DNA of 11,386 nt. Origin: Candidatus Heimdallarchaeota archaeon (GTDB lineage Archaea; Asgardarchaeota; Heimdallarchaeia; Heimdallarchaeales; Heimdallarchaeaceae). Shown one piece after another: positions 8,961 through 9,203 of this stretch. The stretch spans positions 1-11,386 of the forward strand of contig JAGLTP010000430.1 in assembly GCA_023135215.1 (NCBI GenBank). Reading direction: 5' to 3'. Within the stretch, counting starts at the first letter, position 1. Each line of letters starts with the position of its first letter. Below the pieces are notes generated by a model that was not told the origin of the DNA, did not search any database, and saw only the letters and a list, made by a program, of their open reading frames with translations. A program made the translations under genes and the position numbers.

Positions 8961-8966
8961 AAAAGA
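8961..8966 (-). terminator. U-rich terminator of the permuted 5S gene
   Basis: On the minus strand TCTTTT directly follows the 3' strand of the terminal stem. A short U run is a usual archaeal stop signal. It lies only three bases from the stop codon of the convergent flavodoxin gene. Confidence 0.5.
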
Positions 8967-9107
8967 CCTAGTAAAGTTTTCAGGTTCGGAATGAGTCTGA
9001 GTGTTACCCCTTCACTATGGCCGCGACGCATCGCAGCGAACGGCCGTTCCCAAGCCCTCGCGGAACTTAGTACAGAGCCACACGTTGAAGGACTTAACTT
9101 TCCCGAC

Positions 9108-9128
9108 CATCTGGAACGCACCCAGATG
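9108..9128 (-). other. Extra hairpin in the leader of the permuted 5S
   Basis: On the minus strand CATCTGG and CCAGATG form a perfect 7-bp stem with a GTGCGTT loop. It lies between the terminal stem and the helix II 3' strand and has no counterpart in normal 5S rRNA. It may stay in the mature RNA or mark a processing site. Confidence 0.6.
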
Positions 9129-9203
9129 TTGTCTGACCTTACTAGGCAAAAGAATAGGATAGATTTTGTTTTTGAATGTTACTATTGGAGAGAAATGATT
9201 TTC

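Follow-up and report, generated by a model that had tools for sequence, protein, structure and literature searches.

How does an archaeon obtain a working 5S rRNA from a gene whose two halves stand in the wrong order? The molecule is near universal and its linear form is taken for granted. The question arises from the window analysed here, a stretch of 11,386 nucleotides from Candidatus Heimdallarchaeota archaeon, in which an earlier note had described a circularly permuted 5S rRNA gene. The order that it described is borne out: on the minus strand of positions 8961-9147, the 3' half of 5S (GUUAAG..GUACU..GCGAGG..GGGAA) lies upstream of the 5' half (GGCCAUAG..CAUUCCGAAC), and a pattern written for this order matches the window once and none of 200 shuffles. 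As the note had it, the joint between the halves is a 7-bp helix I (hairpin at 9020-9037) whose UGCG loop links the usual 5S ends. The five helices, loop C and loop E that typify 5S rRNA (RF00001) can indeed all be drawn, with standard base pairs at 29/29 positions of helices I-V, and covariance model R1 scores 146.8 bits at 8978-9104. The parts of the locus, in the direction of transcription, are as follows.

9167..9188, minus strand: AATAGYAA element and A-rich TATA-like box, a probable promoter judged by its sequence, about 20-40 nt upstream of the stem
8961..9147, minus strand: permuted 5S rRNA transcription unit (leader with terminal stem, 3' half, helix I hairpin, 5' half, trailer), matched by R1
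9137..9147, minus strand: 5' arm of the outer (terminal) stem, GCCUAGUAAGG, partner 8967-8976
9133..9136, minus strand: distal candidate central helix, 5' strand UCAG, partner CUGA at 8980-8983
9108..9128, minus strand: leader hairpin CAUCUGG-GUGCGUU-CCAGAUG, conserved among Heimdall-type genes
9102..9105, minus strand: proximal candidate central helix, 5' strand CGGG, partner CCUG at 8981-8984, next to a bulge AAA at 9099-9101
9086..9098, minus strand: 3' strand of loop B (GUUAAG) and 3' strand of helix II
9042..9083, minus strand: helices IV and V with loop E (GUACU)
9020..9037, minus strand: helix I hairpin GCUGCGA-UGCG-UCGCGGC, its UNCG loop linking the usual 5S ends
9007..9014, minus strand: 5' strand of helix II
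8980..9000, minus strand: helix III with loop C (CAUUCCGAAC)
8977..8979 (distal register) or 8978-8980 (proximal register), minus strand: 3-nt bulge AAA on the 3' strand, predicted cleavage region
8967..8976, minus strand: 3' arm of the outer (terminal) stem, CUUUACUAGG
8961..8966, minus strand: U-rich run past the stem, possibly a terminator

The outer stem comprises 10 bp (9137-9146 with 8967-8976). Folding of the window transcript is 3.14 sd better than that of shuffles, 2/200 of which fold equally well, and its unconstrained minimum free energy (MFE) structure recovers the terminal stem and the leader hairpin and not the entire 5S core. Upstream, the AATAGYAA element and the A-rich box are both conserved, which is consistent with an independent transcription unit for 5S. 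A tRNA-Ser(GCT) gene at 9270-9352 is divergent from the 5S gene, so that the intergenic promoter region may be common to both. Elsewhere in the window, gyrA and gyrB occupy the minus strand at 214-4819. The archaeal assignment made in the note also stands, since the flanks are up to ~94% identical to locus L018 from Candidatus Heimdallarchaeota.

That a standard pipeline would probably miss the gene had been foreseen, and the covariance searches proposed at the time agree. Rfam 5S_rRNA (RF00001) reaches 18.1 bits in the window against a gathering score of 38, and the model for mtPerm-5S (RF02547) gives no match to the window at E<=10; standard annotation would thus pass over the locus, and the permutation is probably the cause. 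Falling short of the RF00001 gathering score is expected for a permuted order, and we therefore file the gene as a permuted variant of 5S rRNA, not as a canonical member of the family. An overlapping SNORD101 match in the window (16.3 bits) was rejected as chance.

The same arrangement is found in relatives. A scan for the permuted-order pattern over 84,980 prokaryote species returned 27 loci, 27/27 of them in Asgard archaea (21 Heimdall, 2 unspecified Asgard, 2 Baldr, 1 Jord and 1 Njord); the exact pattern is strict, and its silence outside Asgard is accordingly weak evidence of absence. The permuted order had no match in the viral collection searched. By score, using two covariance models (R1 and R2) and RF00001, the 227 Asgard genomes divide into 138 permuted, 59 canonical only and 30 with neither. 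A genome was called permuted at R1 >= 39 or R2 >= 59 bits; the locus was extracted for 127 of the 138, the calls for the other 11 resting on scores, and the 59 canonical genomes were called by their RF00001 score, some of them being read as well. The permutation is widespread in the Asgard phylum. Profilin matches to PDB chains suggest that G174 is Odinarchaeum and that G158 is Loki-like. An R1 score taken alone was rejected as proof of permutation: canonical Asgard loci score up to 36.8 bits (30 loci) and canonical loci outside Asgard reach 61.7 bits among the matches listed, whereas some permuted genes fall below 39 bits (34.8 for L186). From 165 genomes outside the phylum, among the matches listed, we read 10 loci (the 8 highest-scoring and 2 others), all in canonical order and two of them tandem genes.

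A normal 5S gene elsewhere in the genome had been named as what would speak against the permuted one. None was found in 16/16 of the first genomes tested, all relatives of the window: RF00001 exceeded its cut-off in 0/16 genomes carrying permuted 5S, versus 11/14 controls. Over the whole phylum it did so in 64/227 genomes, and permuted and canonical signals occur together in 5/227. The RF00001 copies over the cut-off in G135, G043 and G111 were rejected as bacterial contamination, each standing beside a bacterial 23S rRNA gene on a contaminating 23S-5S contig (L195, L196 and L197, respectively). In G032 the RF00001 match overlaps the permuted copy itself, and in G023 an extra copy is canonical in order, with a BHB-like intron where the permuted genes are opened. 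The complete chromosome of Heimdallarchaeum endolithica (CP084167) bears two permuted copies, and no canonical 5S exceeds the cut-off in this genome, for which the authors reported being unable to predict a 5S (PMC8813620). The permuted genes fill this reported gap of complete Heimdallarchaeum genomes without a predictable 5S (PMC8813620). A 5S gene has been reported in a Jordarchaeum metagenome-assembled genome (PMC9723677); in contrast, the gene in locus L011 is permuted. In G056 (contig C510) several permuted copies lie close together, and in G032 and G034 they lie near the ends of contigs; these may be unresolved arrays. A search of titles and abstracts of open-access journal papers returned no report of a permuted or circular Asgard 5S rRNA.

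Compensatory changes, which the earlier note had suggested looking for, are abundant. In an alignment of 18 cores from relatives, 93.7% of cells are paired and two-sided covariation affects 21/29 pairs; 0/500 shuffles reach this pairing and covariation, and every measure falls when the partners are slid. The terminal stem is likewise maintained with different letters in L006, L010 and L013. The locus is, with near certainty, a real and conserved circularly permuted archaeal 5S rRNA gene. Judged on its sequence, the window gene is almost certainly functional, as the note had supposed in setting aside a scrambled remnant, because it is conserved with strong covariation and has no canonical competitor in the complete relative.

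What is made from such a gene is suggested by its new ends. These lie within helix III, at what appears to be the conserved bulge of this helix. They carry a motif resembling the bulge-helix-bulge (BHB) of spliced archaeal RNAs in its hBH form (an outer stem, three bulged nucleotides and a 4-bp helix; defined in PMC6379350 and PMC3978253). No inner helix h', part of the strict hBHBh' form, was seen by eye, and the motif is thus at best of the relaxed hBH form. Counts were made on 112 sequences reduced to 110 and then 109, of which 90 are distinct (72 non-Heimdall-type and 18 Heimdall-type); truncated loci (L015, L020, L097, L114, L115, L157), the second copy in L138, duplicate loci and L187 were left out. 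In the last (G212:C15), a 5S of canonical order, GGAAGUUAA is followed by ~33 additional nt that may be a further intron. Among the 72 non-Heimdall-type genes, the leader 4-mer directly before loop B can form 4/4 pairs with the 3' strand of helix III in 54 genes, and 3 pairs or more in 68. The pairing is kept through covarying helix types, including CGUG/CACG, CCAG/CUGG, CAAG/CUUG, CGAG/CUCG, CUGG/UCAG and CCGC/GCGG, and when leaders and trailers are exchanged among 22 helix types, the observed pairing is reached in 0/2000 shuffles.

In 59/72 genes an outer helix of 4 bp or more adjoins the central helix across a 3-nt bulge on the 3' strand; with other bulge sizes (0-2 and 4-7 nt) such a helix appears in 0-6/72 in the fixed register, which was selected together with the 3-nt bulge, a selection that favours 3 nt. 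In a free register, a 4-nt bulge yields an outer helix in 49/72, yet a full central helix in 14/72. The hBH-like geometry is missing in 8/72. BHB motifs are cleaved between bulge nucleotides 2 and 3. In silico, joining at the motif restores the canonical 6-nt spacing in 56 of the 64 hBH-like genes (7 nt in 7, 5 nt in 1); canonical loci themselves have 6 nt in 15 of the 17 parsed (19 given), and in only 5/9 by a cruder parse.

The Heimdall-type genes, to which the window belongs, offer two competing registers. In the distal one, the outer stem and a UCAG (14 genes) or GCAG (3 genes) opposite CUGA stand 3 nt apart in 17/18 genes; the second Heimdallarchaeum endolithica copy (L017) is without this motif. 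Through this register the window has the 4-bp central helix, 3-nt bulge and outer helix of a BHB-type gene, but joining there would retain the conserved leader hairpin within 5S, giving a 152-nt circle (predicted junction CCUGAA|AACAUCUGG) whose MFE structure is not the canonical 5S fold. In the proximal register, CGGG or CAGG pairs with CCUG and the product would be a 121-nt circle of canonical spacing (predicted junction CCGAACCUGAA|AGUUAAG), the MFE structure of which has all five helices and a few extra pairs; a conserved adjacent outer helix is missing. In the window, ligation would restore the canonical sequence in the proximal register only. The cut site in the window's clade is ambiguous.

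The gene is opened elsewhere in a few genomes. A second type of break lies in the other arm of helix III (six genomes, five of them close relatives) and a third in loop B (one genome). Genes of types 2 (6/6) and 3 (1/1) have 4/4 central pairs and 3-nt bulges, with outer helices of just 3-4 bp. Their predicted join gives, in 5/6 type 2 genes, the uninterrupted UACCCGGUCCCAUCCGAAC found in type 1 relatives (e.g. L223); by eye it resembles the canonical sequence in L193 and in the gene opened in loop B. An R2 match was rejected as a mark of type 2: only six of the matches read are of that type, and L246-L255, L222 and L223 belong to type 1 and for the most part have an expanded loop C. An expansion hairpin in loop C was observed in L183, L184, L186, L222, L223 and L247-L255, and a loop C insertion of a different kind in L149. 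The canonical-order copy in G023 (L198, contig C117) has its short BHB-like intron in helix III and sits beside tRNA genes that seem to bear introns; it is plausible that it resembles the ancestral state of the permuted genes, and its contig may belong to another organism.

The machinery that such a motif would call for is present in the genomes tested. EndA, the tRNA-splicing endonuclease, is matched in 12/12 genomes tested (two matches per genome in 11) and the ligase RtcB also in 12/12; the sample was drawn from the 227 Asgard genomes and consists of relatives of the window, 10 permuted and 2 canonical. As both proteins also occur in the canonical genomes, their presence is permissive and not specific. 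Among two-subunit EndAs there is a type with tolerance for relaxed motifs (PMC6379350). The Heimdallarchaeum endolithica RtcB (G001:C1:1674331-1677159) matches in two stretches that lie apart within a single 993-aa frame, possibly because of an intein.

We consider it likely, on the evidence of the genes, that the tRNA-splicing endonuclease cuts the transcript at its BHB-like motif and that a ligase, probably RtcB, then closes the product into a circular 5S rRNA. The permuted transcript would be expressed, EndA would cleave after the second of the three bulge nucleotides, the cut ends would be joined, and the product, with its UNCG-closed helix I, would most likely stay closed and serve as 5S rRNA in the large subunit. 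The lack of ends in such a product would account for the three different points at which genes are opened. It also seems fairly likely to us that the ribosomes of most Asgard archaea contain a 5S rRNA closed covalently into a circle, its gene being free to reopen at several points, and that the trait arose early in the phylum.

A smaller share of our confidence in circularisation goes to a variant in which the circle is an intermediate and the helix I loop is then cut to release a canonical linear 5S, a rather unlikely course that has a precedent in permuted pre-tRNAs, circularised and afterwards cut at the acceptor stem (PMC3978253). Helix I speaks against it: the UNCG loop closes it in 66 of 107 parsed genes (the loop could not be parsed in L103 and L152), it measures 7-8 bp in 90/107, and its hairpin is even greatly expanded in L180 and L247. 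Capped and sized in this way, the hairpin looks like a stable end that is kept, which argues, without proof, for its persistence in the mature RNA.

It is quite unlikely that circularisation does not occur and that the mature 5S is a linear permuted RNA, its new ends paired in the terminal stem as an unspliced expansion segment of helix III. In bacterial 5S, the bulge of helix III is described as ranking among the sites where insertions are least hindered (PMC7812874), an archaeal 5S tolerates a 108-nt insertion (PMC7530397), permuted organelle 5S has been reported (cited in PMC10085705), and Heimdall-type genes keep a conserved leader hairpin. However, the leader 4-mer complements and covaries with the 3' strand of helix III although it would compete with helix III, the 3-nt bulge is preserved, and the same rule holds in three break points and one intron; the BHB-like motif at the ends predicts circularisation, not a mature linear permuted RNA. 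Two-piece processing is known for permuted genes (PMC10085705), and a transcript processed into two pieces that pair as a 5S, in the manner of permuted two-piece tmRNA, is nonetheless very improbable, as the halves in the window are joined by a 4-nt UNCG loop without a spacer and the ends carry a splicing-type motif. The chance that the locus is a pseudogene or a misassembly, with a normal 5S elsewhere, is negligible given its conservation with covariation and the absence of a canonical 5S over the cut-off in the complete Heimdallarchaeum endolithica genome, and misassembly, against which the note had cautioned, is very unlikely because the arrangement recurs in 138 genomes by score, including one whose assembly combined Nanopore with Illumina reads.

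Should circularisation be borne out, this would be the first 5S rRNA known to us to be circular, and 5S would join the substrates of the tRNA-splicing machinery in those archaea that are most closely related to eukaryotes. The Asgard genes would then also serve as a natural experiment on the need of 5S for free ends. Annotators would gain a covariance model that was missing, and existing Asgard enrichments allow a direct test of the circular 5S.

Permuted 5S rRNAs of organelles (mtPerm-5S) were reportedly described by Valach and colleagues in 2014. They share the permuted order with the Asgard genes and differ in their host; the Rfam model for mtPerm-5S exceeds its cut-off in 0/9 permuted Asgard genomes, with one stray match of 15.6 bits away from the 5S locus, and we know of no circularisation of BHB type in mtPerm-5S. 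The 5S rRNA of Halococcus morrhuae is also altered around a preserved canonical core, by insertion and not by permutation (PMC7530397). Circularly permuted tRNA genes resemble the Asgard genes in having the 3' half first, a BHB-like junction and a predicted ligation (PMC3978253, PMC3218864); their intermediates are reopened at the acceptor stem (PMC3978253), whereas helix I of the Asgard 5S is mostly closed by UNCG. EndA also circularises archaeal 16S and 23S rRNAs at BHB motifs, and circular forms of both have been observed in Asgard archaea (PMC12918454). Unlike the permuted 5S, they come from genes of normal order, and the same source states that 5S is outside the set of rRNAs shown to be circularised (PMC12918454). 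The SRP RNA of Thermoproteus, permuted, circular and processed by EndA (PMC4731332), is also comparable. In T. tenax, too, the gene of a universal archaeal non-coding RNA is permuted with its ends near a conserved loop, a BHB with a 4-bp helix is processed by EndA and RtcB, and ligation restores the canonical loop (PMC4731332). The SRP RNA is not an rRNA, its permutation is described from two Thermoproteus species (PMC4731332), against 138/227 Asgard genomes by score and three break points here, and it is known to be circular, whereas the circularity of the Asgard 5S is predicted from the genes.
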